Origin: Temnopleurus reevesii
Lineage: Eukaryota > Echinodermata > Echinoidea > Temnopleuroida > Temnopleuridae
DNA length: 64,000 bases
NCBI GenBank assembly: GCA_036244855.1
Contig: BQKZ01002453.1
Span: 27,203-91,202 of the forward strand
Direction: 5' to 3'
The translations under genes were made by a program, and so were the position numbers. The notes below the pieces were generated by a model that was not told the origin of the DNA, did no database searches, and saw nothing but the letters and a program-made list of their open reading frames with translations. Positions 24,601 through 59,787 of the stretch are shown here, in pieces (the stretch's first letter is position 1; each line of letters opens with the position of its first letter).

Positions 24601-27600
24601 TGTACAAGTTTAATAAAAAAATCATTTCAATGAAGTATTCCGTGGTAGAAAGATTATTTGTGATATTCCTGAAGTAAATGAAGCGTTATCTTTCCAAGTG
24701 CTTTAAGATAAAACATAATGTACCCATCTAACGCACAGCTAATCGTCTTTAAAACAAATACCCCGCCAATGCACCACCCTCCTTCGGCCTCTGATAAACA
24801 AACTCCAAATAAACATGTCGTTCTGTATTATCAGTCTCCGATTGATAATTATGTTTTGAAACAATTCAGTGGTTAATATTATCCTAAATACTCACCAACA
24901 TCACACCATGAGCCTTCCCATCCAGCCATGCAGACTCTCTCGCCTTGGCTATTGCACACGTAATGGCCGAACGGGTCATCTCGAGGCGTACAGGAAACTT
25001 GACACTTGGACCCGTAGAAGTTTTCCGCACAGACAACTCGGTAGGAGTAGTCCAGCGTGTGCAACGACGTCGGGTAGGTGTAGTTCGACCACGCAGTACT
25101 GACGTTCAACGATCTTTGGATCTGCAGCGATTCGAGCCGCCTTCTGGTACCTGGACGCAAAAGAAGATAAAAACACATGTTTAATAAGATAACGAATTTC
25201 AGTATTTTGTGATCATTCGAGCTCAAAACCAAATCTACTTGAGCTTGAAGTCATCGGGCACCACTTCCAATAATACAAAATTAATTTCGGCAAAATTTGA
25301 ACTGGTTAACATCTTAAAAAATCATCATCTACGGTTCTTGGTAATCTGCTAGGACAGAGCATACTGGCCTGGATTCAGACATTATTCTCCCTTCACTTCT
25401 TCATTTTGCTTCGCTCGACCTGACATTCACTCGGGCCAGCCAAGCGTTGTTGATATCGCTTACACGTGAAGTGAATTCAGGCATCAAAAAAGAAAATTAG
25501 CATGATTATTCTAGCACGTTGTGGACTACCGTCCTCCAATCTGCTCATAAAACTCATCCTCGTGGGAAAGGCTTCAAACAGGTACGTCTTAGAAAATAAT
25601 AAAAATAACCACATTTCTGCATCCTTTGTGTTACTTTTGTGATATAAAGGTTTATGCACTCAGAAAATACACAATGGTTCGCGATTTGTTAAATTTCAAA
25701 CTATTGAAAATCTGATAATGGACAGAAAATTTGGCGCGGTTTGGTGATCCATTCAAGGTCAAGTATTGATAATTGTGTATTTGGATCGCGTGTCTGTCGC
25801 GTGGTAAGCGTGCTACAAACTACACCTGTCTCCTCAAATGACCACCCTCCCCAATAGATCACATGACCTTGACCCCTAAATCACCCCTTCCTCCCATTAA
25901 CGCCTCTGAAATAAGCAACACTGAACATCAACAAACTGGGGCCAAACGGTCACCGGTTTATCTCGCATCGTCATAGATCTTTTCAAATTTCATTTTGGAG
26001 AAATAAATAATGAATAAACCATTGATTCTGCGTTCTATTCTTGGCCGTCTCGAGAAATTGCCTTATAAGAAGAGGGTGTTTGGTAGAGGAGGACTAGTGA
26101 ATGTATTTTCATTGCAAATAGACAGCATTCCAACACAAGCGACCCCAGTAGCTCTAGCCAATCATGCCCAGCCCAGCTGCTTCGCATTGGCCCACAAGAC
26201 GACCGTAAATCTACCAGCTTTGCAATTGGGCATTTTCTTCGGACTAAAAGTAATTGCCAAAATGAAATACAAACTCAGCGCGAGATCCGCTTATAGCTTG
26301 CTAAAACAACTTAAAACAGAAGCCTAAACATTTCCTTCCAACCCCAGAAACCCTGTTTTGGTAAAAAGCGCTTCCATGGTTTCGTACCAATTTTAATTAT
26401 CAAGACTTCACCTCGAATTTTCCCGCGCCCTTCAATCGCGCCGATCATTTTCATGAACATGTTACAAAATATGAGGATCGTTTCTCCTCTCTTTCTCATT
26501 CCAAATGGGTAGATTGGTTGTGTATATAAGTTCAACGGGTGAAGGATATGTGTGTGGCATACTGCAAATAATTATATCAGTTTAAAATTGTGTGGTTGCG
26601 GGCAGATGGCTTTATTCCCACGACTCTCTCATCGAAAACAAGTTGCGAACGATAATTTAAGGCACGCGAATGAAAAATGCACTTCACTATAAACAACTCG
26701 CAATGCTACACAATGGATGAATTATGACCCTGTTGTTAGACAACGTATAACATATTCAATCGTTGATAACAGAATATGATGAATATTTTATAAACTGCTG
26801 GTATACTGTCAATTATCCTATCAATCTTTCCTTCGAAATTTTTGGCGGGGAATATATAATTGATGTGTGAGTACCTGCTCGTAGACATTATCAATTCAAA
26901 TCATCTACGTGTGGATAGAATAACAATGTAAGTATTGATAACACTAATTATTAATCTCTAATACACATTATGAAAAAGCATCCACGTATTAGTAAATGCC
27001 TGTGAGATCGTTGTCCATTATATAGCGACTCTTCGTCGTATACTACAGAATATAGACCTCCAATATGTGACGTGTACTAGAAGTCGTATAGTTAGGCAAA
27101 AGAGGCTCTCCACATTACAAGTGTATTACGTAGAAACGGGCTGCCAATCACTTACATACTTCCTTCTCCAGGTAAAATTTCCTACTTTACATCAAATTTA
27201 GCCCAAGATTATGGAGATAAAATATCACTAGGATTGTATATCATAAATACATAATGTCTACATATATTTAACACTCTAAAATGGATTGTTTTTATACATG
27301 ATTTGCAAGTATGCTTGTTTTCCCCCAAATGCAGTGCATAAAAATCTATTTGACCTGTTTGTAATCCTAATTTAGGTGGTCTTTTCTACAATTTCCACCA
27401 CTTTTGCTGGTATCTTGGTATCGCCAGACAGAAGAAAACTCCCAACATCCGGTGTTTGAATAATTCCTCCAAAATAAACGAGTCGAGACACGAAGGGGTG
27501 CAGTGTGCGAACCATGTGTGTCAAAATTACACCCCTCGCTCCAAGAAACTGCGGGCAGGGGGTAAAAATTTATAACTCTGCAGGCGGAAGTCGTTGAGGA

Positions 27601-29849
27601 TTATCCATTATAGGGTGATCATGAAGAAGGAAATAAAAACAAGAACTTTTTGTGGAGGCTGCTGCATCGCGGGTCGGTAACATGAATCACGGTGGAAAAA
27701 TGGAAGGGCGTCCATATTGTATTCCAAGAGAAGAGTTGAGGAGATGCTAATTCGCTTAGCAAGTTGATATGTCACATCGTATTATTCCAAACATAGTCCA
27801 CGCGTGTGCCCATGCCAATTGTTGCCTGATGGTAGACAGTGTTGGTGACAATATAATAATAATCTACAATGAGCTGGTCCATGTAAGCTTGCAAGGATGC
27901 GAGTGGATACGAAGATGGCTCGATAACAGATGAGTGTCTCGTTATTGACATGACTTTTGAAGAATGTTTCCACAGCGGGGTGTGAGCCCCATACACGCAT
28001 GACTATCCAAGAAGGGGGGGGGGGTGTCTGGAATATAATTCCTCAATGGTATATCCGCTTGCATGTGCAGTTATAGTGATCCATTATAAGTATAAATCCA
28101 GAATTAATATTCCCGATGATTAGATGAATATCCGCGTATCCACGTTTCAAAAAGAAGCTATATATTCGTAGTCATCACCATACATTGTTGTTTTCATAAT
28201 CCAAAATATTATACAGACATAGTAATTGTACTAACTGTTGCTGTTGGGTGTTGCATGTCAAATACAAAACATACAATGAACATACAAGTATCTCAATTAT
28301 TGTGTTAAATCTGCAATGTACCAATCTTGAATAGAGTACAACTTAAAATACATCCCTATTAATTAATTCATTAGTTGTTTAATACGGTTTTGTATTAAGA
28401 AATCATTTAGAATTGAAATTATCTATAATGTCATATTGTACAATAAAAAATAGACTAATCGAGTAAAATTAAATTTATAACAAAATTATAAAAATGATTG
28501 GCAGAAATGAAGCAACAATTCTGGAAAACCAATGAATAAACATATCATGAAATCTGCAGTGAATGTTTAAAACTAATGTCAATAATATTGTTTGTATGTG
28601 AATAGTACATGTGCCCTTTGAAAAGATGGGCGTGTCAGATTGAATGTCTTAGCACCCTTGCCTAAAACTACACAACAAAACATGAAGAATCCTCACCATC
28701 ATGAAAACCCGAATTGCTCTCATCGTGCCATGCATCCAACGCGAGTGAAAAATCACCCTGTAAACGAGAAGAAAAAAAATGTTCATTATCACAATAGTAC
28801 AAATGAATACCTATTATTGCCTGATATCGGAGGTACCAAAAGTCGTTAACATTTTGAATTTGAGAAGACAACAAACAAGCACTATTCATCACCATGTTGC
28901 ATGCGAACTCTTTATGACATACCATGCACTGTGGATAAAACTAGGGCATCTTTTAATTGAATGAAAGACTTGGACTGGTATAATGAGAGATATACCCCCT
29001 TCGAAGATGAGCCGAGATTCATTAAAAGGAACTACTCAAGCATGAATGAATACAGTAGTGTTGCGGGTAAACTATACCCCCCCCCCCCCCCTTTACTACA
29101 GAAAACTTCAAGCGCATCCTTTATTGATTGCTCAAAGCACAATCTCAGAATTTTCACACGCTCATGGATTAAACAGCTCTACTTGGGATGTATATAAGAA
29201 AGAATTTGTCCAGGAAATAACTATGGAGTGGAATGGTTGTGTTATGTACGAAACGAAAATAAAACATTACTTACCGGCCAGTCAATATCAAACGCTATTT
29301 GTATTAATCCATCATGAATATCGAAAGAATTTTCTCCCAAAACAGACGTATTCCGGAAAGCAAATGTGCATTGTCCTGGCAAGGGTTCTTCGGGGATTTC
29401 ACGAAGAAAATGAAGCAAGCACACTGTGAAATATGTCCTACATGGTCCAACACATTGATCATCAGCACTTGTAATATTTCCACAACATTGTCCATTGATA
29501 TCCTTGGCTTGGTCGTTGGTAAAGGAGTTGAGGCGAAGTTCGAATATGCCTGCAGCTGTCGTGACCTGTATGAAAACACACAAAAAACGGGAAAAATATT
29601 AATACACCGATAATGACTTTCTGAAATGGATGCGGGAGCATCGCTCGGCATGCCGTATCTCTCGGCTGAGTGTGTAGCCGTTATTTGGCCTACCATTGTA
29701 CGAAAATGCTTCGTGCTACATAACGGAGATTCCAATTTTAGTACACGAGCTTAATTGAGATGGAAAAGAACACGATTTCTTACCTTTGAAATAATGCTAA
29801 TCCAATGCAAGGCAAAAATCACTGTATTACTCCAATTAAAACGCCCCAT
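15662..29849 (-). CDS. Delta: Delta, Notch ligand (ten coding exons, 796 aa predicted)
   Basis: Single-pass membrane ligand that activates Notch on neighbouring cells. Joining 29849-29784, 29565-29275, 28757-28697, 25150-24896, 21785-21731, 21081-20793, 20440-20230, 19980-18888, 17687-17624 and 15667-15662 gives 2388 coding bases plus a stop, in frame at every GT-AG junction. Domains in order: signal peptide (about 1-22), MNNL (23-139), DSL (160-222, six Cys at 180, 189, 193, 205, 213, 222), nine EGF repeats (227-547), membrane span (about 589-612), cytoplasmic tail (613-796) ending ATEV. EGF3-7 and EGF9 carry the O-fucose pattern C-x4-T-C. The tail has NxxN at 633-636 and 672-675, like Neuralized-binding motifs of Delta. 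The start has A at -3 and G at +4. Family assignment is near certain from the DSL cysteine spacing plus EGF array; exons 9 and 10 are less certain. Serrate/Jagged is excluded because there is no cysteine-rich region after the EGFs. Confidence 0.95.
15880..16105. promoter_or_regulatory. Intron 9 block with octamer, CCAAT and CACGTG palindrome
   Basis: Contains ATTTGCATAT (15919-15928), CCACGCGATTGG (about 15981; CACGCG plus inverted CCAAT), a perfect 14-base palindrome TGATCACGTGATCA (16024-16037) and ACCAATC just after it. It is clearly GC-richer than the rest of the intron and looks like conserved control DNA, but no coding potential is recognised. Confidence 0.35.
16106..17623. other. Rest of Delta intron 9
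   Basis: No recognised feature apart from moderately GC-richer patches near 16320-16400 and 16750-16860. The intron starts GTAATT at 17623. Confidence 0.45.
17624..17687 (-). CDS. Delta: Delta exon 9: penultimate tail exon ending A-T-E
   Basis: A 64-nt exon (1+63) found by following the exon 8 donor. The acceptor is strong: a long pyrimidine tract and CTGACAG|G. In the phase required by exon 8 it encodes 21 residues, starting A-A-V-D-D and ending L-H-A-T-E, and the donor is GAG|GTAATT. ATEV is the C-terminal PDZ-binding sequence of vertebrate Delta-like 1 and 4, so finding ATE in the right frame at an exon end is unlikely to be chance. Without splicing the frame would run on 14 residues to a stop. 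Confidence 0.72.
18888..19980 (-). CDS. Delta: Delta exon 8: EGF6-9, membrane span, most of the tail
   Basis: Residues 410 (split) to 774 (split). EGF6 ends at 433; EGF7 is 438-469, EGF8 476-507 (NINDC start, calcium-binding type, no O-fucose sequon), EGF9 514-547. A 40-residue juxtamembrane stalk leads to a Leu/Ile/Val-rich span (about 589-612) and a basic stop-transfer YRK. The tail is rich in Ser, Asn and Tyr, with EEYYYYDEKS near 731-740 and a Ser/Gln run after it. The exon is open to a stop at 18886-18884 (TCG TAA), but this overlaps the consensus donor C|GTAAGT at 18887-18882. Either product has Ser at 774. Confidence 0.95.
20230..20440 (-). CDS. Delta: Delta exon 7: EGF4 end, EGF5, EGF6 start
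   Basis: Residues 340-409 plus one base. It completes EGF4 (Cys 347, 349, 358), encodes all of EGF5 (365-396; CANGSTC) and starts EGF6 at Cys 402. Acceptor ATTATTCAG|AGT, donor AACG|GTACGT, phase 1. Intron 6 is 352 bp and intron 7 is 249 bp. Confidence 0.94.
20793..21081 (-). CDS. Delta: Delta exon 6: EGF1 end, EGF2, EGF3, EGF4 start
   Basis: Residues 243 (split) to 339. EGF2 spans 256-284, EGF3 291-324, and EGF4 begins at 330. EGF3 (CMNGGTC) and EGF4 (CVNGGTC) have the O-fucosylation sequon. Acceptor CTTTATAG|T, donor TGTAAG|GTAAGA, phase 0. A second possible donor four bases upstream (T|GTAAGG) would break the frame into exon 7, so the downstream one is used. Confidence 0.94.
21731..21785 (-). 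CDS. Delta: Delta exon 5: first half of EGF1
   Basis: A 55-nt exon (residues 225 split to 243 split) for the start of EGF1, C-SEGC-VHGQC-VAPNSC. Acceptor CTCTACAG|CC, donor TGCAG|GTAAGT. The 2+51+2 base layout fits only with exon 4 (phase 1) before it and exon 6 (phase 2) after it. EGF1 is short, as EGF1 and EGF2 are in Delta/Jagged ligands. Confidence 0.93.
21786..24895. other. Delta intron 4 with several E-box/Hes cores
   Basis: A 3110-bp intron. CACGTG occurs at 23181, 23253 (as GGCACGTGGT) and 23462, and ACACGCGACC (minus) at 22893-22902. No coding exon or repeat is recognised; whether it holds an enhancer is open. Confidence 0.4.
24896..25150 (-). CDS. Delta: Delta exon 4: DSL domain
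   Basis: Residues 140 (split) to 224. It carries the Delta/Serrate/LAG-2 domain that binds Notch EGF11-12. Cysteine spacing C-x8-C-x3-C-x11-C-x7-C-x8-C is exactly the DSL pattern, with YSYRVVC at the first Cys, NFYGSKC at the second and GWEGSWC at the last. N155 (NVS) and N162 (NYT) are possible glycosylation sites. Acceptor TTTGCGTCCAG|GTACC, donor TTG|GTGAGT, phase 1 both sides. Confidence 0.96.
25463..27806. promoter_or_regulatory. Intron 3 candidate control region (E-box, Su(H), Hes-type sites)
   Basis: Within Delta intron 3 (25151-28696) lie CACGTG at 25463, a perfect Su(H)/CSL site CGTGGGAA at 25561-25568, two CGCGTG cores 11 bases apart at 25787 and 25798, a second Su(H) site (minus strand) at 26615-26622, GGCACGCGAA at 26661-26670 and the palindrome CACGCGTG at 27799-27806. 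Su(H) sites are where Notch-activated complexes bind, and CACGCG/CACGTG sites are bound by Hes repressors. The motifs are seen; enhancer function is inferred. Confidence 0.4.
26661..26670 (+). promoter_or_regulatory. Hes class C-type site GGCACGCGAA in intron 3
   Basis: The only GGCACGCG inside the Delta transcription unit. It lies 39 bases from the Su(H) site at 26615-26622. Confidence 0.45.
28697..28757 (-). CDS. Delta: Delta exon 3: end of MNNL
   Basis: A 61-nt exon for residues 120-139 plus the first base of codon 140. It reads GDFSLALDAWHDESN, matching the conserved W-P-G-x-F-S-L-x-x-x-A-x-H that ends the MNNL module in Delta proteins once joined to exon 2. Acceptor CGTTTACAG|GGT, donor GATG|GTGAGG, phase 1. 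Intron 2 is 517 bp. Confidence 0.9.
29275..29565 (-). CDS. Delta: Delta exon 2: MNNL domain
   Basis: Residues 23-119, phase 0 at both ends; acceptor TTTCATACAG|GTC, donor CCG|GTAAGT. It encodes the N-terminal Notch-ligand (MNNL) module: G-I-F-E-L-R-L near the start, the paired cysteines NGQCC (49-50), then Cys 60, 64, 71 and 88, and FDIDWP at the end. Potential N-glycosylation sites are N52 (NIT) and N94 (NTS). In Delta and Jagged proteins this C2-like module contacts Notch and lipid. Confidence 0.93.
29784..29849 (-). CDS. Delta: Delta exon 1: start codon and signal peptide
   Basis: Residues 1-22. The peptide begins MGRFNW and has a short hydrophobic core (VIFALHWISII), as expected for a secretion signal. 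The donor reads AAG|GTAAGA, phase 0, and joins exon 2 to give the K-V-T-T junction. Intron 1 is 218 bp (29566-29783). Conservation of this short exon cannot be judged here, but it is the only nearby ATG with a hydrophobic stretch, a correct phase and a strong donor. Confidence 0.85.
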
Positions 29850-30008
29850 AGTTCCAGTAAAGATTGCACGCCAAAGAGGCAGTGCGGCTGAGAAACCCTT
29901 GTCCGTTATTCCTTTCTTATCACTCCACTCAATTCTGCGAGCCTGCTACGATCGACTTGATCGGCCAGCTCTCTTTGTCATTTTCGGCTCGACTTTACAT
30001 TTACTACG

Positions 30009-30061
30009 CTCCGCCCATAAGTGTGGCACGTCGACCAATCACAGCTCACCCCACACGCGAG
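30009..30061 (-). promoter_or_regulatory. Proximal CCAAT and GC boxes upstream of Delta ATG
   Basis: On the minus strand: GGCTCGCGTGTGGGG (CGCGTG core), GTGATTGGTC (inverted CCAAT), GACGTGCC, then GGGCGGAGC (GC box). They sit 160-210 bases upstream of the ATG and are locally GC-rich. They could be an alternative TATA-less promoter or control elements in the 5' UTR of the TATA promoter above. Confidence 0.4.
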
Positions 30062-30496
30062 CCTCCGTAGCGTTTGATGATAGCACACTGAGCAAATTAT
30101 CGCACGAGAGGGCGACAATCTACTTTTGTCACCGATGAAGTTGTCCTGTTGCAGAAAGTAGTATTGGAGACTGTCAAATTTGACAGTGGGCGTTTAGTTC
30201 AACTCCAATGTATACAAAATATTACGATATAATTCAATAAATATATTGTTCATGCAAATTATAAAACTGCACAAATGGGTAGAAAATCGCAGAAATTACT
30301 TGTTACACGAAGAAGAAGATTTCACTTGAGCGTATTCCGACTTGGGTATATTCCAAATATATTTCACTTGTTGCGAGATGGTATAGAACAGCGTGTAAAC
30401 TTCGCTGAAAGTATAGTTGAAAAGTACACGCAAAGTTTGGTTGCGTTCGCGAGGACAGATTCTTAATAAATAACCAAGTCTAACGAGGAACTCCGC

Positions 30497-30567
30497 TTTA
30501 TATACGAGACCTCGGCTCGTGCCGCTGTTTTGCATATGAATAGGATTATGGCCCGCTGTCGCGTGGG
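30497..30567 (-). promoter_or_regulatory. Candidate Delta core promoter with TATA box
   Basis: Minus strand, in order of transcription: CCCACGCGAC (about 30567-30558, Hes class C core), CATATGCAAAA (octamer-like, about 30538-30528), GGCACGAGCC (CACGAG, an N-box form), then GTATATAAAGCGG with the TATA near 30505-30497. A start about 30 bases on, near 30475, would leave a 5' UTR of roughly 620 bases before the ATG at 29849. The TATA sequence and orientation are clear; that it is the Delta promoter is inferred from position. Confidence 0.5.
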
Positions 30568-30582
30568 CTCGAGTTTTTTTCT

Positions 30583-30587
<5 letters not shown>

Positions 30588-30615
<28 letters not shown>
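30588..30615. repeat. (TC/GA)n tract upstream of the Delta TATA box
   Basis: A pure 28-base TC run on the plus strand (GA on the minus strand), about 90 bases upstream of the TATA box. GA tracts are common near metazoan promoters and also occur as simple repeats elsewhere in this window. Confidence 0.9.
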
Positions 30616-30617
<2 letters not shown>

Positions 30618-30845
30618 AAATCCGGATTATCTCGAGGCACGATCCACAGGGTCCAATGTTCTTTATCGATGTGCCTTCTTCAAAACAACCCAGGTCGATT
30701 TTTTTCTCTCTATCGTCTTGTTAGTTCTTCTTTTTTGTTGTTTGTTAACCAAAGTCTATTTTCAAGGGATAATTGTATGCTGGGTTGGAAATTTATAATA
30801 CTTTTTGTTAGCTCGAGCTACTTTGTCAGAGATAAAGCTTCAGTT

Positions 30846-30853
30846 CGCGTGCC
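30846..30853 (-). promoter_or_regulatory. Hes class C-type site, upstream of Delta
   Basis: Reads GGCACGCGAA on the minus strand, about 350 bases upstream of the candidate TATA box. Confidence 0.45.
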
Positions 30854-31319
30854 TCTAATTACCTATGAGCTCCAATTTGACTATCAATGGAACTTATAGT
30901 TCTTCTAAATCATACATGCTTATAATACTCAACTTCTGACAAAATGTACCTAAAATTATTTTGTTATATTAATTGCTTTCCAATGAGACACTGTCTATTC
31001 TGACACTGAAATAATAGCCTACTGAAATAACCGTTGGAATTTTATATCGAGAATTATGGTGGTATTTATGAATTATGTTCTGCCTCCGTCCAAAGTTGGC
31101 ATTTTCTGGTTATATAGTTACAAATACTCTTCAAATTCCATCAGTGCGATGCCATGAGTTGGTTATATTCCAACAAAGGCAAGGTAGAGGGGTGCCACAC
31201 GTATCACTGGCCTGGTCTTTATATTAGCCCAGTCCCTCACTTTTTTCTTTCCTCCCTGGTTCCCCCTCCACTCTTCCAAAGTTCTTTTGTTCGTCTCAAC
31301 CTCACCCTCGCCAGCAAGT

Positions 31320-31745
31320 GTGCTGCCATTGTACGCGACGCGTGCCTACAGTCAATAGTTTGAATAGGTCCACGAGAGGCTTTTTTCTTTCTTTCCACTA
31401 CGCTCTTTCATTCCATTCAAACTGTGTGGTCAGCTGTGTCCAAGCAACTTGCTTGCACCTGCGCTTCGTTTGTTAGCCTGCTATTGTTGTTCGGGTGGTT
31501 CTCTTGCTTTTTTTCCTCCCTACCATAAATTTGCCCCATTCGGTTGCCTGGTTTTACCATTAATTTCTGCTGGAGAACCCGCCCTGACCCGGGCGTATAT
31601 TCATAGATTCATGATCGTTCTAGCCAATCAGAGCGCGAGTTGACAAAGCGCGCGGCAAAAGCCGGAAACCCGTGCGTTTTATATGAATGAAGACTTCCTG
31701 GGTTGATATGCAAATATGGGGTCACCATTTACGAGCACGTGCCAT
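31320..31745. promoter_or_regulatory. GC-richer block upstream of Delta with Hes, CCAAT and octamer sites
   Basis: Contains GGCACGCGTC (minus, 31337-31346), GCCAATCAGAGCGCG (CCAAT box, about 31623), a GC-rich GCGCGCGGC patch (31650), the octamer ATATGCAAAT (31706-31715) and GCACGTGCC (31735-31743). It stands out from the AT-rich surroundings and lies 1.5-1.9 kb upstream of the ATG. No ORF of note. Confidence 0.4.
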
Positions 31746-32222
31746 CAATACTACAAGGTCATGACAGTCATAAATATCTACCAAAAACACAATTTTGTGT
31801 TTTCTCCCATTTGTTCACGTACCAAACATACCAATAGATATAGCAGGTGAAATACTTCATACTTGTTGCTCATGATAAATGCAAACTTTATACTTGCTGT
31901 CGGCGAAGGAACTCAGTGCTTATCACGATATTGCATGATAACATTAATGACTTTTATCTTTTTAAATATTATGAGCATCCGTCGGGGTTTCCGCCAGAGC
32001 ATATTTTCTAAACAATCGACAAGATATGTCGAATCATTAATAATACAGATTAAAACCTTAATGGTTGTTTATATTCGTTGCTGTAAACATGGTAACGTAT
32101 ACATGAAACATACCATACCCTAATGAAGCTAATAAATATATTGACATTGTTGTCAATATCTAAAGGATGTCCGGAAACACAGGAAATGAGATGGATAAAA
32201 GAAAGGCATCAAGAAAGAGAAG

Positions 32223-32228
<6 letters not shown>

Positions 32229-32260
<32 letters not shown>
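32229..32260. repeat. (GA)n microsatellite
   Basis: Pure AG run of about 32 bases, followed by a purine-rich tail to 32330. Confidence 0.9.
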
Positions 32261-32264
<4 letters not shown>

Positions 32265-32854: not shown

Positions 32855-32862
32855 GGCACGCG
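32855..32862 (+). promoter_or_regulatory. GGCACGCG site, upstream of Delta
   Basis: Context GGGCACGCGCC. Surrounding sequence is unremarkable AT-rich DNA. Confidence 0.35.
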
Positions 32863-33980: not shown

Positions 33981-33988
33981 CGCGTGCC
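33981..33988 (-). promoter_or_regulatory. GGCACGCG site, upstream of Delta
   Basis: Context on the minus strand TGGCACGCGAA; isolated. Confidence 0.35.
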
Positions 33989-35005: not shown

Positions 35006-35349
35006 CAATGCTTGCTTCCCTATTTGTTAAAGAGCTGAAGATGAGTTAGCATGCCAAAGGCCTAAAGCTCAACTGTGCTAACCCGCTCATAAACAAGTTC
35101 ATACCTCCGACAAATTATAGCCTCACTCAAGAATCACGCAAACTATACAAAATATTGGCCATGAACCATCCTCCAATGTCCAATGCTTGCTTTCTAATTT
35201 GTTAAAAAGCTGAAGATAAGTTATCATGTCAAAGGCAAAAAGCTCAACTATGCTAACCCGCTTATAAATAAGTTCATATCTACGACAAATTATAGCCTCG
35301 CTCAAGAATCACACAAACTATACAAACTATTGGCCATGAACCATACTAC
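35006..35349. repeat. Imperfect tandem duplication, 175-bp unit
   Basis: Copies start at 35006 and 35181 (CAATGCTTGCTT), and both contain GCTAACCCGCT and CAAATTATAGCCTC and end ATTGGCCATGAACCAT. About 90 percent alike by eye. Confidence 0.9.
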
Positions 35350-35480
35350 AGAGTTGACAAAATTGAAAATACACCCCCCCCCCCTCCATAACTCTTTCCA
35401 CCCTTCACCCAAATCAAGAGATCGCCAAATATGTAGCACACACGCATCGAGACCCACGTCTTGCTTGTAAATTTCCCAAC

Positions 35481-35490
35481 GGCACGCGAC
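35481..35490 (+). promoter_or_regulatory. Full class C site GGCACGCGAC
   Basis: Context CAAC-GGCACGCGAC-CAG, about 5.6 kb upstream of the Delta ATG, with CGCGTG at 35645 nearby. Confidence 0.45.
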
Positions 35491-36359: not shown

Positions 36360-36379
36360 TTATATATATATATATATAT
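36360..36379. repeat. (TA)n microsatellite
   Basis: Alternating TA run of about 20 bases. Confidence 0.9.
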
Positions 36380-37591: not shown

Positions 37592-37593
<2 letters not shown>

Positions 37594-37622: not shown

Positions 37623-38720
37623 AAAGGGAACTCCAACTAATTCATTTTATATGAAAAAATTATGGACTTTTATAACAAACACTAGTGACATGATCTTTTG
37701 GAAAATTGGCAACTTTGATGACGTCATGGTTGCACTTGTAACAACTTATCAATGGATAAAAATAGTGCATTATAATAATGCTTATTATAAAAATGTACAA
37801 AAGGAATAAATTCAGAGCATGGAGAAAACGATTTGAAACCTGCAACTATTTTATTTTCTCTTTAAACACACATCATTAGAATGTATATTTCATCTTGCAT
37901 TATATTAATTTATTACGGAAGTAAACTGATGATGATCAGCGCCAAATATCATTTTGCTCTGTTGCTGCTGCCAAGCAAATCTAGTATATTGTTACATAAA
38001 TCAATGACTTATGAAACTTCATGACCAAAAACTGTTCGATTATGCGTTACGTATATTTTCACCATGTCTCCTGTTATAGATATTCTTTATTTGTATTTCG
38101 AAGGGGTACTTCCTACAGACATTGATGATGTATGAACAAATGAAGAAAAATAAGATCAGCAAATTGTGAAGAATTTGAGCAAAATCGTACAATCTGTTCT
38201 AAAGTTATGTAATTTTCCACTGTGGAAATAAATGAAATGAACAATTTCAAAGTTCCCACGTACACCTGTTATTGGCATCCTTGATTCGGCAACTCTGCTG
38301 GTAGAATCTGTGATGTCATCATGGAGGACTCCCCATTCACTTTGTACATGTTGTACACAAAAGTTAACATTTTCCTCTTATCAAGAAAAGAAGACAACCT
38401 TTTTGTTATTTGAACATAATTGCCACATAAATCTGCAAGCGTTTAACACAAGATGACGCCTCATTTGAAATTTTGAAGTGATTCATTTCTAATAAGCCCA
38501 TGTACAAAGTAAATATGGAGTTCTTTATGTTGCCATAACAGATTGCAAAGTTGCCAACTCAGGGATGCCCATCGCAGGTGGAAATGTACACTTTGAAAAT
38601 GCATAGCTTTTTCATCAATGTCTAGCTGGAGGAGTTCTCTTCTTGATTTCTCAGTGGCATTGAAAAATAGCTCTTTGAAAATCTGGTGGCAATATGATAC
38701 TCCCTCGTAATATTATAATT
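37623..38720. mobile_element. Palindromic element related to the one at 7571
   Basis: Inverted arms at about 38221-38360 and 38495-38610, sharing TTCAAAGT, GGCATCC, GGCAACT and a CTTTGTACATG pairing around a short centre. The left border with AAAGGGAACTCC at 37624 is tentative. The arms also match the middle of the 7571-8074 element. No coding capacity. Confidence 0.6.
38253..38260 (-). promoter_or_regulatory. Su(H)/CSL-type site inside a palindromic repeat
   Basis: CGTGGGAA on the minus strand. It lies within the left arm of an inverted-repeat element, so it may be carried passively by the repeat. Confidence 0.25.
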
Positions 38721-39355: not shown

Positions 39356-39365
39356 GTCGCGTGCC
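39356..39365 (-). promoter_or_regulatory. Full class C site GGCACGCGAC
   Basis: Minus strand context CTG-GGCACGCGAC-CTG, about 9.5 kb upstream of the Delta ATG, flanked by CAGCTG at the start and a non-repetitive block (39200-39450). Confidence 0.45.
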
Positions 39366-49742: not shown

Positions 49743-49812
49743 CCCACTGACTACTTCATTCTTTAATTCCAATAGACTTTTTGTGGACCACCCGGTTCCA
49801 GAATTCAATGGG
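49743..49812. mobile_element. Short TTAA-flanked MITE, copy B
   Basis: TTAA then CCCACTGACT on the left; TTCAATGGG then TCAA (one change from TTAA) on the right, making CCCAYTGA inverted ends. The core GACTTTTTGTGGACC and CCCGGTTCCAG match copy A. Confidence 0.6.
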
Positions 49813-52800
49813 TCAAATTGTTCGGGTTTTTTTTTAAAGAAAATAATTTTCATTTATTTGTTAACAACATCTATTTATTCTCGTTATCAAGTAATATGAT
49901 ATGTCAGTATTTAAAACAAGACGAAATATAACGTTGGATTATTACATGTATATGAATTCAAATGTCTAAAAGGGAAAAAAAATGTTCCCTCCCGCGCGCG
50001 CCAAAATGGTTCTAGGCTGACCAACCGTACCAAAATTATTAAATGCAACAACAACTGAGCATATTCATATCTAGCGTTGGGTTTGCTGTCTTAGGAGTAT
50101 CATTTACAATGGCTTATTAAAAAAATCTAAATGGAGGAGGGGTGTAGAGGGGACACACAAATAAAGTGGTAATGTTTGCAAGAAATATATACCGGTTTTT
50201 TTTATTGGCGCACTTGTCAATAATCATGACTCATATGAGGGTTTCATGGACCGGCTACAGGTCCCATAAAATAATATATTTGGACTTGGTCGAGTAAACA
50301 TGGGGTCGGTTTATAGACTGCAACCACAGACCCATTTCATACATATCACGTACTAATATATTGAGGATAAAAAAAATTGAATCAACATAATATGTCTAGG
50401 TCTATATAAGCCGTTATCAGTGAGTTTTTTTAGGCGTGTACCCGGCGCGTTCCCGGCGTGTACCATTTACTTTAGGCTATTAGACGTTGCTCCAGACTCA
50501 TTTATGCTCACAAAGTTGGCATGAGGTAAACTTCTGGGTCTGGGATTTGGTCTGTGATCCCAGACTAGTGTCGACCAGACACGAGCCCCGAATGCTCCAA
50601 CATTTAGGCCTTTTATGTCCGCTATTAGTTCAGCCGGCAGGTGCGCGAGCGTGCGCCTTTTGTTTGCAAACAACGGTGAGGTAGACAATAGAAGGGCCGA
50701 GGTCAAAGGTTAAAAGTTATGCGCTCCAAAGCTCAATGAGGAACGCATGGTCGGACCAGCTAAAATTTGAGCTCCAAAATAAAAGCTGGAAAGTATACGA
50801 TTCGAAGTTTATCGACAATGACTACTACCCCCTCCCCCGAAAAAAAAACCCACCCAAACAAACGAGCTCCAACTGCAGTGGCTCCAACACCTGTTGGAAT
50901 TAACTACAAGATCGTCGGTTCTTAATAATGATTCATGCACTGGTATCCAAGACAGAATACATTACATACATGATATTTGCTAATGTTTCATTGTGATTGT
51001 CATTTATGGATATTGTTTTTCATTATTCAAGTTGGTTATTTTGGTTCATACATCGGACATTGCGTGATAATACATTATGGATTTCCTTTCTAAATATAAT
51101 GGTTTTTGGTGTTCGATTTCCACGTTTGTAAATTGATGCTGTAAGAATAATCTTAGATCGATATCTTTAAAACAAATTGAGCGGTTATTTTCAAATACCA
51201 TAAACCCATTAGAAAATGCATTATAACATATTAAAAAGTATATGTATGAAGACGTGTAATGTCGATATACATTATGAATAGGTGGAGTTTTAAGGGGATT
51301 TCTTTCTAGATTGAATATCATACTAAGTATGTCTTATGAACGATATAACATGCTATCAATTCATGCATTGCACATACACATCATTTAATCTTGTAGCTCT
51401 CTCAGTGCAATCGACTTATAGCAAACAAATTATTAGTTCAACTTAAAAAGCAAATTCCTTTAGAGTCTTGTTCGATGAGATATGATATCATTGTGTCAAT
51501 ATTCAACACGAGCACGCTATGTCCCTGGACTAAATAAGTGTGCCGATTTAAGTCAATTATGAATCGGCATTTGAGCGCGAGGTTTGGGCAGACAGGTGCG
51601 CCTTTTATAATTTTGCGCGGTGCAAAGGTTGTTTTGTTGCGATTAAAACTGAGATATAAAAAGATGACCTGGAAAGTTTCCTCTCAAAAAGAGAATTGAA
51701 TTTTATCATTGCTTTTGCCAATTATTATGTGTAAATGCTACTAAAGTTTGAAATTCGAAATTTGTATTCTACAAAAACGGCCATTAGGATATTATACATC
51801 GTTAATCTTTTTCTTTTTTTTTAAATATAAACCAACAAATCCTCACGTTATAATATGTAAAGGTTTGATAGTTAGAAACCGTTCAAATTGTTTCCGTTTG
51901 CATCTGTTCATGAACGTATCCACAATTTGTCTGAAGGGGAAGGCAGCTGGAGTTCCGAGAGCTCCTCGAACCTCTAAAAGCAAAACCAAAAAAGTGAAAG
52001 AAAGAATAATAACGATAACATAGTAATTATAATAACAGTAAAGTATATTCAGGAATTTTGCGCTCGCTTTCCTCCACTTCGGGGTTGGGGTGAGCCCCTA
52101 AACCCCCACCTCATGATACGAACATGCTGGTTACAATCTTGGTGATTATTCAATATTCAATCACCTGATCAACCGCAACCCTATTTTTTCACTACTTGTA
52201 CATCAACTTATAAAAACTAAAATGATGTAAGATCATAGTGTTGTTCTTTGAGCATTTCTTTCTCCTTTTCACACTATAAGATGAAGCAGGGTCATTCGAA
52301 GTCAAAATTTTTTCATTCAATTTCGAAAAGCGACAAGATAAGATGATGTATGACTTTGGTTTTGATTTGAATTAGCAAATTTCTGCGGGCTTTGAATAAT
52401 CAGAATTAATTACGGGTATTCAGGTTACCACAAAATGTGTTACCCTTCCGGTGTTCGGCCTGACAAGCGATTGAGATTCATGGCAACAGCTAATTTCTCA
52501 TATTTTTGTTTATACTGGTGTTATTCTTACGTTGATTGATGGGCTTTGGTAAATAAGATTTGCTAATAATTATGAGATTATCTCGATTTGTTTAGTAATT
52601 GTGTAAAAGCAAAATGAATAAAGAAATACGTATTCATATAATAGACATTTATCTAAAATGATTTATATGTATATACAGCAACCAAATGAATTAAATAGGA
52701 CTGATAACAGGCCCAACACTAGGACGATTATTTTGCTTGTTTTGTTTTCCATTTTGTATAGGGGATGGGTCATCTAAAACGAACTCCCCCTCTCCCCTGT

Positions 52801-54238
52801 TAATGATAAATCCCTGCATTTCCAGTACATGAACGGGATTAACAAGAAGCTCATTTTCTTAGAGATAAATTTGGATTAAAGTTGGTATCGCTGTATCATG
52901 TTTATATTTTTGTAACGAGAAATGTCGTTTTATCAACCATTTTGTGATTATTTTCGGTTGATAATGAAGACCTGCGTTTGTGCTTGGGAATACTTCATCA
53001 CGTGCGGTACATGCATGTGTCATCCATTTGACCGTACTATTAAAGTCCTGTTTAAAAAAGGGAAAATATCACTATACATCCAAGCGTCCCCATTTTAATG
53101 CCATAATTTGCTCAACCAGCACCGGTTACAAAGGGCATTATTGCCGCTTCCAGTCAATAGTTTAACCAGTTTATTATCGGCAAACTGTGGAGCGACCACC
53201 ACAAGGATCCCACAAACTCTGGAAAGACCAACCTCGTTGGGCTGGAGGCATGACTAGATCGCGGGCAACAAGATGGGATCCATCAATCTTCATAATCCAT
53301 TTTACACCACCAAAATGGCGCTCGTGTCCATTGTGGAGATAATGAAACAAGGGGTCGTCCATCATTCTGCTTTAGAAATTTCAATAAAGAATGAAAATGA
53401 GATGAAAATGAGATGAACACGGGGTAATGTTCCGCTGATGGCACGATGGACATTAATCAAATCCAATCGCAGATTCTCATTTTTTATGTTGTCGAGTTGG
53501 TTATGTTATCTTGGAGATAAATCATAAACGAACGTTTCCAGTGTCGCCCCTCGGAATCTTATGATTATACGGAAAGAATGGTTCCTTTTTAGAGGATGAT
53601 GTGGGAGTTTTTTTTTTATTTTTATTGAAGAATGGTTTTTAATCATCACCATCATCATGAATGCCCCAAAGGAAGAACGCAGTTTCTGCATTATGCACAT
53701 GAAAAAGAATTATCTACTGACTTCCTTTATATGCAGAAAAGTAGAAAGTCGACAAAAATGCTAAATACTGCATTGCATGAAGTACATATACACATTTAGC
53801 ACAAATTATATGAAAATGCAACGAATTGGCTGGGATCACGTAAGAAGCATAGCTTGTGGAGCCTCCTCCCAAATCTGAGTCTGTATCAGTATACAACTCT
53901 TAGAAAATAAGACATTAATGTCTGAGGATAAATGAATTGAAAATGTCATTTCAAATAAGATCTCTATCATCTGATCATGTTTGATCACGGAGAAAGGAAA
54001 AGTCTGTCAACTTGAAATCTTGTTAGCCCCTTTCCGATTCGATTTTATCGTGTTTTTCATCTTAATTTTTGCCAATTGTCCTGCCCCATGAAGCACCCTT
54101 AGTGCTCGCGACAGGTGCACACCGTCTGAAGATAAAACCCAAATACCTTTGCCCTCTCCACACATGGCTACAAATTAGTCCAGAGATAAAGAGCGTCTCC
54201 CGTTCTAAAGATCAACATAAGATCAGAGGTGTTAACTC

Positions 54239-55065
54239 GGCACGCGACTTCGTGATCGGGGATAAGGTTTTTTCCCTCCATTTTTTTTTGTCAAGGAGAT
54301 GTCGGAATTAATTATGGGCTTGTATACGATCGGATGGACAGTCGTGAATGAGGCCCTGCCCACACACCCTCTTATGAATATTTAATTAGGCTGCAATAAG
54401 GAGTGACTTGGGCACGCGACGGCACGCGAAAGCTCTTATTGTCCAGCTGAAGGGTGATTGTCAACCAAACACGCTGGATTAGTTGGTCATTCGAAATACT
54501 CGATGAAGGGAGGGGTAAAAAGAATAAAGTATTTGCTCAACAATGCACGAAAGGGCTTTTACACCCATGATCCGAGGGGGGGGGGGGGGGGGGGAGCTTC
54601 TTCTAGCCACGTCTGTCATTATCCATCCACAGGCATCAATATATCTACATAACAAAAGCGTGTTAATAAAAACTGGGTATGGATTCTTCAAGGGGCACGC
54701 GACTTAAAAATGACTATTGATCTATGCTCTTTGGTGGGCCAATAAACCGTTGGAAGTCCAAACAAATAAAAAACCGGGCTTTTATTCACCGAAGCCATCC
54801 AAACAAGAGTAAAGCCCAACTGGAGTGGAGTTAAAACCTGGAGCGAGGTGACATCTGCATGCGTTCCCGAGATAGTTAACTTCTCATCTGCATATTAATG
54901 TAGAATGGGGAGGTTATAAAAGAAGAATAGGCACGCGAGGAGTCGTGTAAACATAATGTTAACCCGTAGCTCCCCTGTAGTAACGAGCTATTGTTTGAGT
55001 GACTTCTCCGACAATGGCGTTTTGTTGTCGGCACGAGCTTGGAGCGAGAGGGTGAGGGGCACGCG
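54239..55065 (+). promoter_or_regulatory. Cluster of six Hes class C-type sites (candidate enhancer/silencer)
   Basis: Six GGCACGCG octamers, all on the plus strand: 54239 (GAC), 54411 (GAC), 54421 (GAA, directly abutting the previous), 54694 (GAC), 54930 (GAG) and 55058 (GAG). Three are the full GGCACGCGAC. CACGAG at 55032 is a further N-box-like site. The flanks differ from copy to copy, so this is not a tandem repeat. Other possible sites include GATAAG (54260) and an AT-rich TTTAATTAGG (54380). About 25 kb upstream of Delta. No gene is recognised here. Confidence 0.5.
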
Positions 55066-55465
55066 AGGGCTCATGCCATCATGCGTATGGTACTTCTTTG
55101 TTTCATCACATTCGGGAGTAATTAGCTTTGTTCCATTCCGGGCTCGCTCGCGACTCCAAACGACTGGACGAGGTCGTATAAGACAAAGCCCCCGGGTGTA
55201 CCCCGTCACTCTTCGACAGACCCGTTGCATCGTTCGGCTCACTCTCTCTGGTCTAAAGCCCCACCCGAAGGGTAGCTTCTGTAAATGTTCACACCTTCAA
55301 TGTGTAACCCAAGATGGAGCTTCCCCAGAATCAATTATGATCTCGCATTTTGGAGCCAGTCTTAAAAAGCGGAGCTACTTTATAACACTGCCACTGAACG
55401 AATATTTTTGTTATCACCTAAAAAGTCACGTCACATTGGAACGGAACAACCTAAATTTGGATTAG
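55066..55465 (+). other. GC-richer stretch with an uncharacterised open frame
   Basis: An open frame of 169 codons (54956-55465) starts inside the Hes-site cluster and runs through here. It lacks any recognised domain, has scattered Cys and Arg and no clear signal peptide. Higher GC from regulatory DNA explains its length equally well. Could be a non-coding transcript or control DNA. Confidence 0.25.
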
Positions 55466-56094
55466 ATTAGGCTTAGATAGGTTACTGAACGACAAAAATA
55501 ACCCTAATGTTACAGCAGCACTATTATAGAACACTTTGACTTTGTTCTTTGTGTTCTTTGTGTTATGCTTTTGAAATTAGAATTTCACCGAGTATTTTGA
55601 GCTGGTGTGAGGCCGCACATGCAAATTGTTTCATTTTGCACCAAAGTAAATTTATGAAAATTACTAAAAATTATAATCAAAGTAACCAAATTTGTAATCA
55701 TCCCAATTGTATCTCATAATACTATATCTAATATGAATAAGACGTTTCAGACAATGCTTTGTGCTATTAATATTTTCACCTCCCTCTGATAATTTTCTTC
55801 CACATGAACAAATATAAAAAATCTACAACAACATGTACACAATTCTGATGAAGAAATGTCTACACAAACGAGAACTAGCAGGGATTTATCCATGATTGTA
55901 CAATTCCTCAGTCTCGCGCGGAAAACCAATTCGACCACTACATTGGTTTAGTAAACCACCTGTTAAAATGCGCAGATTCCCTTTCAGCGGACTGCTAACC
56001 AAAGCTGCGAAACGTGGTTCGTCCATTAAATCATCAACCCATTCTCCTTTTCTCAAAAAAACATTCCGATAATAAATTGATCTGCCAAAATGTG

Positions 56095-56235
56095 TGCTCT
56101 CTGATAAGACATCTCAACGACCCAAGGGTCGTGACCTCGTAGTGGAACGCGACTGCGGCGCATGCGCACGATAAACAAAACGAATAAGTCAACGTGACGT
56201 TGCACTTGACCTTCGACCTTTCCATGCTGAATGTC
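56095..56235. promoter_or_regulatory. Block with NRF-1/P3A2-type palindrome and nuclear-receptor half sites
   Basis: GGCGCATGCGCA at 56157-56168 matches the NRF-1 consensus; P3A2, the sea urchin NRF-1 relative, binds this type of site. Next to it are ACGACCCAAGGGTCGT (palindrome, about 56117), CAACGTGACGTTG (about 56190) and TTGACCTTCGACCTTTC (direct half sites, about 56207). It could be a promoter or enhancer; no adjacent gene is recognised. Confidence 0.3.
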
Positions 56236-57060
56236 AAACTTTATCTGATCAAAGTGAGCACTTTTTTCATTTCCCCCGATGCATCTCTATTTTGTCCATG
56301 TGTAAAGGGCTTAACCAGGAGGAAGATTTGTTTTCAGCATGCTTTGTTGTCCGAAAACCAGGAAAAATTGTGGATACCTTTCCCAAGACCAAATTCGTAC
56401 TCAATTTCACTTTCTTTGTTTCAGAATAGAAAATAGAACAGATCAAAACTGAAAAGTCAATAGCAAGACGATTAAGAATTAAAAAAAAAACGTACATTTG
56501 TATTGTATTTGCCCTAAATGTATTGGGCAAAAAGGCAAAACGTTATGATATTTCAGGAATTGCCTAACCTAATGAATAGTTTTCCATTTGCATTTGTGTT
56601 GTGGTATCTAGAATACGAATAAACTTTCATTTTCCCTCCAAAATGTAGCATTTGCTGCAAAAAGACAAACATACTCCTTGTGCTCACTGGTCAATACATA
56701 ACTCGGTGCTTCTAAATGAAATTGATTATTAGCCGATCGATAGGGCAATTTGAGCCGGTCGGTTTGAGCGTCGTTTGCAAGGTGAATTCGAAGATTACCC
56801 ATTAATAATGACCATTGTTCTGCCTCAGGTCATTAAATGGTCAAGTTTAAGAACATCTGGGCAGCATCTCATGCCAAAGGCAGTATAACAAGTAGTGACA
56901 CTCGGATGATCTAGTGAATAGTTTTTCAACATTGAATCACATTACATGGGCTTATCCTTTTGTCGCAATAATCATCCTGCTATCGTCTTTATCATTTGTT
57001 TTGGACAATGTTGGATCTTCAAATTTTCTTGCAGCGTACCATAAAACGGAATGAACAAGC

Positions 57061-57131
57061 TTGACTTCTGAATTATGCATTAATTCCTATAGACTTTGTG
57101 CATGGAATACGTGGTTCCAGTATTTACTGGG
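57061..57131. mobile_element. Short TTAA-flanked MITE, copy C (decayed left end)
   Basis: Contains ATTCCTATAGACTTTGTGC and GTGGTTCCAG like the others, and ends ACTGGG-TTAA. The left end is no longer recognisable. Confidence 0.5.
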
Positions 57132-58112
57132 TTAAGTTTGCTTGAAAGCTCTACCCTAGTACAGGGTCTATGTATTGATATTTAAAGGAAAGGATCTAAA
57201 CATTGTCCCTCTTTACCCCAAATGTCCCAGTACGTCCCGTTTAACGGTATCGGGCTAACCGAAAAGGAGTCTTATGGAAAGAAAACAAATTTACATGTAC
57301 GCATCTTGCATCTCCAAACCTATATTCTTAATCTTTGACAGAAAAATAACCATCATCTGTTCAGTTCGAGAATGAAATATTAATCACTAGGGAGGTCAAA
57401 GATTAGAGGTCAACCGGAAATGAGGACAATGTCGTCTAATCTGTGACTCCCAAATGCGTAGATTGTCATGTTGTCGATGAAAATAACCAAAATAAACCAT
57501 AAAACTGTCCAGTACACACAAGAAGAAAAAAGTTTGGTGTTTGAAATAATCTATTGGTTTGGTTAACGATATGGAAAAATCAAAGTAATTCCAATGAGTA
57601 ATAAAATTAGATATTTACGTCACTAATATGTCCACTGATTGTCTAAATTTGACCTTACATGTTTTGCCAATTCTTGTTTTTTTTTTTTTTTTAATTGGGG
57701 TACGAACTTTCACCTTCAATTAAATATATTCATACATTAATTTGTTTGTAACCAGTGAAGCTTGTTTTTGAACAATGTGATAATCTGTTTTTGTTTTGAT
57801 CCGATGCGTTTTACTTGCTTAATTGATACCTATTTGAAATATTAATGTCCGAAACCAGCAATAACAAAAACCGTGATTGTAGCTTCAAATAATACAAAAT
57901 TAGGTTTCCAAATCACACGTCCATGGCCCCTGGCAATCGTCAATCGTCATTCGAGTAAAACCAAAGAACAAAAAAAATCTTGTATTTCTCAGAGTGCAGA
58001 CCTCCGTTGCCGAAAGACGATCTGCAATGACTGGTTCTCCTGTTAAAGGATGGATTTGATGTTCAAGAAACAGAATGATACCTCTTTGTTTAGGGGTAAA
58101 GTATTTTCCATC

Positions 58113-58131
58113 TGATGATGATGACGACGAC

Positions 58132-58162
<31 letters not shown>

Positions 58163-58174
58163 GTGATGAGGATG

Positions 58175-58206
<32 letters not shown>

Positions 58207-58244
58207 GATGTTGGTGGTGATGATGATGATGACTACGATGATGT
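58113..58244. repeat. (GAT)n trinucleotide array
   Basis: About 130 bases of GAT with scattered GGT, GAG and GAC variants. It gives Asp, Met or His runs depending on frame and strand; none is a gene. Confidence 0.95.
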
Positions 58245-59301
58245 GTGCTCAAATTGCAGATGTAATGTTTCGAGTATTTAGATATTTTGGTAAACTACGA
58301 TTTCAATAGCATACTTGACTCAAGAAAATATAATTGCCAGAATACCTGCTAAATCTCTGATTTTTCTGCATAATCCATTTTAAAGGTGATTTTCCCTATT
58401 TTGTTTTGGTATACAAGTCACATCAATAGATCTGTAAATTCTGATTCACAGAATATAATAAAATTTTCGAGTCTATTATAGTTTTCCCCATTCAATGAAT
58501 ATTGGAGTACGGTTCCTATTATGTTTTTAAACCAATATTATGGTGCAATGCCTTCCAAAAATACTAGACAAATCCAGCCTTTTTGTAGCCAAAATCTGCT
58601 GTGTGTGCCTTTAAACAATCCGGCCATGGGTTTTGGTTTCAAATTTGTCCCATACTTAACGAATATGAGTCCCTGGTGGAATCATGTCAATTGAAAAGCT
58701 TTATATGGAAAGGACTGATAAGAAAGGCCGTACATTTTTCTACACGTTCTGTCAAGGACTGGTAATGAAAAGGAGTCCGAGACTTTGGCAATTTGTAATG
58801 TGACAATGGTACCATTTGGCCCAACGTTTGTAGTGTTTACTTCGTATCATTCAGTCCCATATATTGCATCTTATATACATGTTGCTGAAAAGGACATTTT
58901 TTTTAACCCCATTCATATCATCAGCTTTGTCTAATAATTGAAGTGCATTTCGATCATAATTGTATATAATTATGTTAACATTTCATTATCCTAATTTTTA
59001 CATAGAATAATCGAATTACACTAAAATTTTGGCAAATTTCACACATGGTTTTACATGAATGTTAATGTAAAAAAATATGCACGATGGTGACGATTATTGT
59101 TAATTCCTCCCCGGTATTAATGTATCCCTGGTATCATTTGTGGTGAATATGATCATATAAACAATAACAAACAGTAAACATGTGAACAATATACTAATAA
59201 AAATGGGAAGAAACAACAGCAAATCGCTTAGTTTTTGCCAGGAGTATAAATGGCGCCGTGTTTGGTCAACAAAATGCTACCAAGCATCTACTACACTCCC
59301 G

Positions 59302-59787
59302 CACGCGCAAAGCACACGCCCATTAGACCCACGCGCTCTGCTAATTAATCACCCCTCGTAGTAAAATGTTCATTAACTTGGTTACGTAACAACTCGGTTT
59401 ACTCCTCCTTCGCCATCTGTCATTTTCTAAGCGCAGGACAAGAACCGTGATTAGTTTTATTATGGACATCAAGACTGCTACCATCATGTTCATTGCGATA
59501 ATTAGCCGCCATGTTACAGGCTGAATGGCGTTATTTGCCAAGAGAAGTCACGTGGTTGCGATTGTCACAAAATCAAACAGAGGCTAGGCGTTATTCCTTG
59601 AAGACTCACAACCAAATCCTTCCAAGGAATTACTGTGGACGTCATCTGTTGAATCTCTGTGTAGAAGATGACAATCTCCTTTGTGATGATCACAAATTAG
59701 ACATCGGCCGTGCGCTGGGCACGCGACACAAATTTGTTTCTGTCATCATTATGAAACATTTGGAGGGGATTATTGAAAACGCGTGCC
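59302..59787. promoter_or_regulatory. Second cluster of CACGCG/CACGTG sites
   Basis: CACGCG at 59302 and 59330, CACGTG at 59549, full GGCACGCGAC at 59718-59727 and GGCACGCGTT on the minus strand at 59778-59787. An AGTATAAATGG (TATA-like, plus strand) lies just upstream at about 59243. The block is less AT-rich than its surroundings. A reading frame of about 105 codons crosses it but has no recognised similarity. Confidence 0.4.

Follow-up and report, generated by a model that had tools for sequence, protein, structure and literature searches.

Delta and its surroundings

The window, by which we mean the whole 64-kb stretch of DNA analyzed here, corresponds to C2441:27203-91202 of an assembly of 558,132,977 bases in 10,433 contigs, and its end coincides with the end of the contig. 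It encodes a Delta gene on the reverse strand, placed as follows:

18887..29849, - strand: Delta gene, from ATG exon to last coding exon (Pfam domains and exon reading)
29784-29849, - strand: Delta ATG exon (exon reading)

The open frames of this gene matched the Pfam families MNNL (E 3.8e-27), DSL (1.1e-18), EGF (9.6e-24) and EGF_DL_JAG (4.9e-10). Together with a transmembrane segment, which was read by eye, the MNNL domain, DSL domain and EGF repeats identify a Delta-type Notch ligand. One of the five frames scanned (20185-20520) is a wrong frame and had no Pfam match, and one exon of the N-terminal domain was searched for and not found. The closest protein to the C-terminal frame (18887-20029) is an unnamed one of 274 amino acids, 76% identical, from a 12.8-kb ENA contig.

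A crude codon score, trained partly on the wrong frame of one exon, revealed no convincing coding frame in 30-64 kb, and its sole high value there falls on a simple repeat (58060-58278). Six frames of the window lacked Pfam matches, including three upstream of Delta (at 47.1, 55.0 and 56.0 kb). A coding gene at 54-60 kb was sought and not found, neither the codon score nor the Pfam scan indicating one. On the 3' side of Delta we noted an open frame of 140 amino acids (12428-12850, - strand) and a 32-base tandem repeat (6283-6556; 8.6 copies, 92% matches) whose unit contains GGTACC. Upstream of Delta are nested inverted repeats (38242-38601) with arms of 57 and 46 bases that are 75-80% complementary, resembling a small degraded terminal-inverted-repeat element. 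Two tandem copies of a 175-base unit (35006-35344, 89% matches) lie near the site at 35481 described below.

A cluster of GGCACGCG at Delta

An exact count recovered 15 copies of GGCACGCG on the two strands of the window, 6 of which extend to GGCACGCGAC. These copies, with a related tandem in a Delta intron, are (all GGCACGCG and GGCACGCGAC entries are exact matches):

25787..25803, - strand: tandem class C cores CACGCGACAGACACGCG, 11 bp apart and without 5' GG, Delta intron
26661..26668, + strand: GGCACGCG, Delta intron
30846..30853, - strand: GGCACGCG, 1.0 kb 5' of the Delta ATG
31339..31346, - strand: GGCACGCG, 1.5 kb 5' of the Delta ATG
32855..32862, + strand: GGCACGCG, 3.0 kb 5' of the Delta ATG
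33981..33988, - strand: GGCACGCG, 4.1 kb 5' of the Delta ATG
35481..35490, + strand: GGCACGCGAC, 5.6 kb 5' of the Delta ATG
39356..39365, - strand: GGCACGCGAC, 9.5 kb 5' of the Delta ATG, adjoining an E-box CAGCTG
54200..55100, all sites on the + strand: candidate distal regulatory module with six GGCACGCG, 24-25 kb 5' of the Delta ATG
54239..54248, + strand: GGCACGCGAC, first site of the distal cluster
54411..54428, + strand: tandem pair GGCACGCGACGGCACGCG, 10 bp apart, distal cluster (exact match)
54694..54703, + strand: GGCACGCGAC, distal cluster
54930..54937, + strand: GGCACGCG, distal cluster, 7 bp 3' of TATAAAAG
55058..55065, + strand: GGCACGCG, last site of the distal cluster
59718..59727, + strand: GGCACGCGAC, far upstream pair
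59780..59787, - strand: GGCACGCG, far upstream pair

A preliminary description of this DNA had listed the same 15 positions, six of them full-length, and had reported no copy in 1-26.6 kb; the recount agrees in every case. The array spans 33 kb, with no copies in 1-26.6 kb, seven in 26.6-40 kb, none in 40-54 kb and eight in 54-64 kb, and six of them lie within 0.83 kb (54.2-55.1 kb). One more copy lies in the 27 kb of contig sequence left of the window.

Where the preliminary description had expected about two copies or fewer per 64 kb, composition models put the number at 0.3-0.6. Simulations under Markov models of order 1, 2 and 3, and of order 1 in 1-kb blocks (200 runs each), averaged 0.30-0.61 copies and never exceeded 4. 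In the window, other 8-mers built from the same letters with two CpGs occur 0.43 times on average, and the 24 one-base variants of GGCACGCG occur 0-3 times each. Expectations calculated by formula rise to 1.0, 5.1 and 9.0 at orders 4, 5 and 6, because models of such order absorb the copies of GGCACGCG itself. Among words with at least 8 copies, and leaving homopolymer and microsatellite words aside, GGCACGCG is the most over-represented 8-mer of the window under the order 2 model.

Within 150 bp of the copies there is no clear excess of Su(H), Ets, Tcf, Runx, Gata or Otx sites; Su(H) sites number 1 against 0.4 expected, and so are not concentrated there. In the same intervals CAGCTG, which is palindromic and was counted on each strand, occurs 6 times against 2.3 expected, ACAATG 7 against 3.7, and CCCCC 25 against 9.5, mostly in a homopolymer run near 54.58 kb.

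Density of the word across the genome

The assembly contains 1384 copies of GGCACGCG, or 0.159 per 64 kb. With 15 copies in the window against 0.16 per 64 kb genome-wide, the enrichment is therefore about 95-fold. The Poisson probability of 15 copies in 64 kb is 7e-25, or 6e-21 after multiplication by 8721 possible windows, and it is 1e-21 if 40 percent of the assembly is supposed to be N. The reversed word occurs 4898 times, so GGCACGCG is not a common word in this genome. Totals for the longer forms are 101 for GGCACGCGAC, 95 for GGCACGCGAA and 67 for GGCACGCGAG, and their reversed controls number 67, 94 and 187, respectively.

Plain GGCACGCG was compared by eye among the first 100 of the 1384 places (contigs 1-116), where no 64 kb holds more than three. 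Among 100 of the 101 places of GGCACGCGAC, the window has 6 and other contigs at most 2 within 64 kb. For ranking we used GGCACGCGA followed by C, A or G (GGCACGCGA[CAG]), a set that leaves GGCACGCGAT aside and for which 262 of 263 places are listed. Among these places, on 219 contigs in total, the maximum per 64 kb is 12 in the window, followed by 4 on one contig and 3 on two; the remaining contigs have two sites (20 contigs) or one (195 contigs). The numbers of windows expected by chance genome-wide are 0.0003 with at least 4 sites, 0.04 with at least 3 and 3.9 with at least 2. Thus, the Delta window was found to be the densest GGCACGCGA[CAG] cluster among the places listed genome-wide. Unlisted places, GGCACGCGAT, runs of N and incomplete contigs could shift the lower ranks but hardly the first. 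The preliminary description had asked whether random windows of this genome would reach the same density; the window lies far above the genome rate.

Assignment of the distal sites

The sites at 54-60 kb could belong to another gene, or to a divergent transcript, instead of Delta. The sequence TATAAAAG at 54915-54922 on the + strand is a possible promoter, from which a divergent transcript would run away from Delta. It lies 7 bp before the site at 54930, and the contig stops at the end of the window, which puts the next gene beyond view. We nevertheless regard this assignment as unlikely, given that the crude codon score offers no convincing coding frame in 30-64 kb and that the three open frames between 47 and 56 kb lack Pfam matches. 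The seven copies in 26.6-40 kb alone, moreover, far exceed the 0.16 per 64 kb of the genome at large.

Other loci carrying the word

We searched six families (Hairy_orange, HLH, kinesin, HMG, Ets and T-box); HMG was chosen with the neural-progenitor gene SoxC in view. The gene names given below rest on domain and similarity matches, and those of Hey and Hand on motifs.

The second-largest GGCACGCGA[CAG] group is on C2914, where four sites lie in 28 kb and an HMG-box gene is 1.5 kb from one of them. Its HMG box is nearest to those of SOX-11 (E 9e-40) and SOX-4 (6e-39), with SOX-2 at 6e-32, and we therefore call the gene SoxC. Three sites in 9 kb of C221 are 21-30 kb from a gene, on its expected promoter side, that we take to be of Hey type from an open frame ending near YRPW. 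Another three sites are on C6222, two of them 794 bp apart on opposite strands; these resemble a pair on C5423 and are therefore likely to be a repeat. On C9961, a zinc-finger gene with INSM1 as its best solved relative (E 1.4e-55) has two GGCACGCGAC on its upstream side.

At the Hes gene of C688, two GGCACGCG fall in 8 kb of sequence, over half of it N, and one copy directly precedes a TATA-like stretch (L033:5964). GGCACGCG was absent from the four other Hairy_orange loci, of 2.5-3.1 kb each. One gene, which we presume to be Hand and do not count as classically neurogenic, carries three GGCACGCG within 6 kb. Three more copies surround a SPRY gene (C2183; L015:4356-4373 and 8421), whose SOCS box was below the cut-off and which has a 10-bp class C tandem alongside.

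Proximity to gene families was compared at 50 kb. HLH/Orange positions had a GGCACGCGA[CAG] site within this distance in 7 of 33 cases; these comprise 31 HLH and two Orange matches, with two contigs entering twice and some matches partial, and the remaining three Orange matches, already represented by HLH exons, were left out. Only 1 of 39 kinesin contigs did so, with matches reduced to one position per contig (Fisher P 0.015). The counts were 1 of 20 for HMG (from 30 matches), 1 of 11 for Ets (from 13) and 1 of 6 for T-box (from 21), the T-box case falling in duplicated DNA. Given the low rates for kinesin, HMG, Ets and T-box, proximity is not general for genes or for transcription factors; the last three point to an association confined to particular genes rather than one shared by transcription factors in general.

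New here is that the second-largest group lies at SoxC, with a group of three on the Hey-type contig and paired or tandem sites at Insm1, Ptf1a and Hes. Textbook accounts of the sea urchin gene network include repression of delta by HesC. In sea star blastulae, perturbation shows that HesC represses delta, and the same is stated for the urchin (PMC7719182). The sites could serve only the early micromere double-negative gate, in which HesC bars delta outside the micromeres, and their neurogenic association would then be incidental. In favor of this view, the stated targets of HesC repression in the urchin include alx1, ets1, tbr, tel and delta (PMC7719182), and such a gate has been described in euechinoids (PMC10322840). 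We consider it rather improbable all the same, since SoxC, Insm1, Ptf1a and Hes genes are among the loci with the next groups, pairs and tandems. Ets and T-box positions, by comparison, are near a site in only 1 of 11 and 1 of 6 cases, counted as family positions and not as individually named genes, with alx1 outside the comparison. None of the contigs with the Ets and T-box matches found has three or more sites among the 262 of 263 places listed.

In the apical organ of the urchin, soxC and delta are markers for the onset of neural-progenitor specification, and expression of insm falls in the proneural period (PMC6371548). SpPtf1a shows transient expression in ectodermal cells (PMC6224346). 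The neighbors of the other sites favor a use in neurogenic lateral inhibition, with the HesC micromere gate as one possible use. Among the titles and abstract openings listed in a literature search we found no description of class C site clusters at sea urchin delta, and delta goes unmentioned in the available portion of a paper on urchin enhancers (PMC8527612).

Which factor may read the word

The base 3' of GGCACGCG is A in 12 of the 15 copies, T in two and C in one, and the second base is C in eight. The published Hairy class C site is ggCACGCG(A/C)C, and GGCACGCGAC forms part of the achaete control oligo (PMC449821). An A after the GG-led GGCACGCG, with C next, fits this consensus (PMC449821), which stands above background in the window: CACGCGA occurs 22 times against 3.3 expected. 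The preliminary description had taken CACGCG for a Hes/E(spl) site, in accord with the Hairy site and with a review in which CACGCG appears as the Hes class C site (PMC449821; PMC12313500). Hes factors are said to bind N-boxes also (PMC12313500). In the window, the class B core CACGTG (20 against 17.8) and the N-box core CACGAG (20 against 16.6) are both near chance, and GGCACGTG (2 against 0.64) and GGCACGAG (3 against 0.6) show a weak excess at most.

The genome encodes Hes repressors, with five Hairy_orange matches. Among their open frames, WRPW is found in three of the five, YRPW in one and neither in one; we take these motifs to class frames as Hes or Hey.

The loose XRE core is TNGCGTG. 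Since TCGCGTGCC matches this core too, the reader of CACGCG might be a different one, such as AhR/ARNT, another bHLH protein or a zinc finger. We think this very unlikely: the XRE form CACGCAA is at chance in the window (8 against 6.6), a result that leaves an XRE/AhR reading unsupported, against the 22 copies of CACGCGA where 3.3 are expected. The GG start and the following A also fit Hairy, and Delta, SoxC, Insm1, Ptf1a and Hes suit a Notch/Hes theme.

Repeat and composition tests

The 200-base flanks of the 15 copies match one another only where the stretches overlap, bearing out the dissimilar flanks reported in the preliminary description. The distal module (54,200-55,100; 901 bases), on which alone the single-copy test was run, is single copy in the genome. 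The repeat family that the preliminary description had wished to see excluded was thus not found, and the copies have the unrelated flanks and, at the distal module, the single-copy DNA of a homotypic cluster. An origin of the excess in repeats or base composition has next to no chance of being correct: duplicated flanks do occur at four other contigs with two GGCACGCGAC each (C944, C3069, C3756 and C4303), but the unrelated window flanks and single-copy distal module reject a repeat, and the simulated maximum of 4 against 15 observed rejects composition.

Tandem sites

Two CACGCGA in succession within 30 bases occur 37 times in the genome, hardly more often than in the reversed control (33), and collapsing families leaves 27 distinct tandems. 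Start-to-start spacing is 10-11 bases in 10 of these 27, against 1.7 expected (P 4e-6); this test is post hoc, because the idea arose from three of those loci.

We surveyed the surroundings of nine of the ten 10-11-bp tandems, C1406 being left out. Two of the ten sit in the Delta window, one is at the Insm1 locus, one is that of the SPRY gene and one is found 2.1 kb from the Ptf1a frame on its 5' side. This frame shares 89% identity with S. purpuratus, 87% with L. variegatus and 75% with Diadema, and on this one protein the sea urchin genome appears not to be that of S. purpuratus. For the tandems on C290, C2532 and C9439 there was no recognizable gene within 5 kb, the wrongly framed exon having been omitted from the codon training here. 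Another of the ten, an 11-bp class C tandem (L035:4928-4945), lies about 260 bp from a GnRH-receptor-like exon frame. The Hes gene of C1641 has a 22-base tandem between its HLH and Orange exons.

A proposed Hes-repressed neural-progenitor regulon

The clustering of GGCACGCGA[CAG] is thus greatest at Delta and second at SoxC; Insm1, Ptf1a, Hey and Hes are also marked, by groups, pairs or tandems. From the sequence excess, the genome rank and the neighboring genes, all of them observed, we infer a factor, a corepressor, a repressive effect and a tissue. Judging from sequence, the GGCACGCG copies are probably class C sites of bHLH-Orange (Hairy/E(spl)/Hes) repressors. The same word at SoxC, Insm1, Ptf1a and Hes would make Delta the main node of a Hes-repressed neural-progenitor regulon, and we hold both parts of this reading to be probable together. 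Several results weigh against it: the class B and N-box cores are near chance, Su(H) sites are not concentrated at the copies, the presumed Hand gene has three copies of its own, three of the nine 10-11-bp tandems surveyed had no recognizable gene nearby and two adjoin the GnRH-receptor-like exon and the SPRY gene, and tandems as a whole barely outnumber the reversed control. The other groups at nerve-precursor genes suggest a shared off-switch written in the DNA.

In a cell that receives Delta, Hes would be made through Notch. Hes homodimers could then bind the putative class C sites in several stretches of Delta: one in an intron, six between -1 and -9.5 kb, a dense module of 0.9 kb at -24 to -25 kb and, at -30 kb, a pair. 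Bound Hes may recruit a corepressor such as Groucho, and Delta would be shut off in the cell that receives the Notch signal, as happens in lateral inhibition. HesC could use these sites as well, in the early micromere gate. The preliminary description had proposed a distributed Hes-repression landscape, citing HesC repression of delta in the micromere network. The landscape itself is strengthened by the published class C word and by the other neural-progenitor, Hes and Hey loci, whereas the micromere gate is not favored over neurogenic lateral inhibition.

A wider version of this reading is also conceivable, though we advance it tentatively and with somewhat less than even confidence. Here GGCACGCGA would be a readable genome-wide code of the Hes-repressed regulon in sea urchins, the 10-11-bp tandems, spaced by one helical turn, would be cooperative platforms for two stacked Hes dimers, and Delta, through its 33-kb array, would be the most Hes-sensitive gene of the genome.

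The result supplies exact candidate HesC/Hes sites and a 0.9-kb module at Delta, and GGCACGCG may predict further Hes targets from sequence alone. It also makes testable the question of whether the micromere gate and neurogenic lateral inhibition silence Delta via the same sites.

Comparison with known systems

In Drosophila, achaete promotes neural fate. Its promoter contains a Hairy class C site with the same 10-base word as at Delta, including the GGCACGCGAC of the oligo (PMC449821). The achaete probe holds one such site, whereas the Delta locus has 15 GGCACGCG over 33 kb of a Notch ligand gene (PMC449821).

The sea urchin HesC-delta gate concerns the same gene, and a predicted Hes repressor is common to both (PMC7719182). 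In the accessible part of that source, the gate is described without named HesC DNA sites (PMC7719182). The HesC gate acts on skeletogenic targets, whereas the genome pattern found here points to neurogenic genes.

In vertebrates, Hes1 represses itself and acts with Dll1 in lateral inhibition. The Delta locus would differ from these systems in the density of its sites, in their distance from the gene and in its 10-11-bp tandems. What they would share is the silencing of targets by Hes factors at class C sites (PMC12313500).
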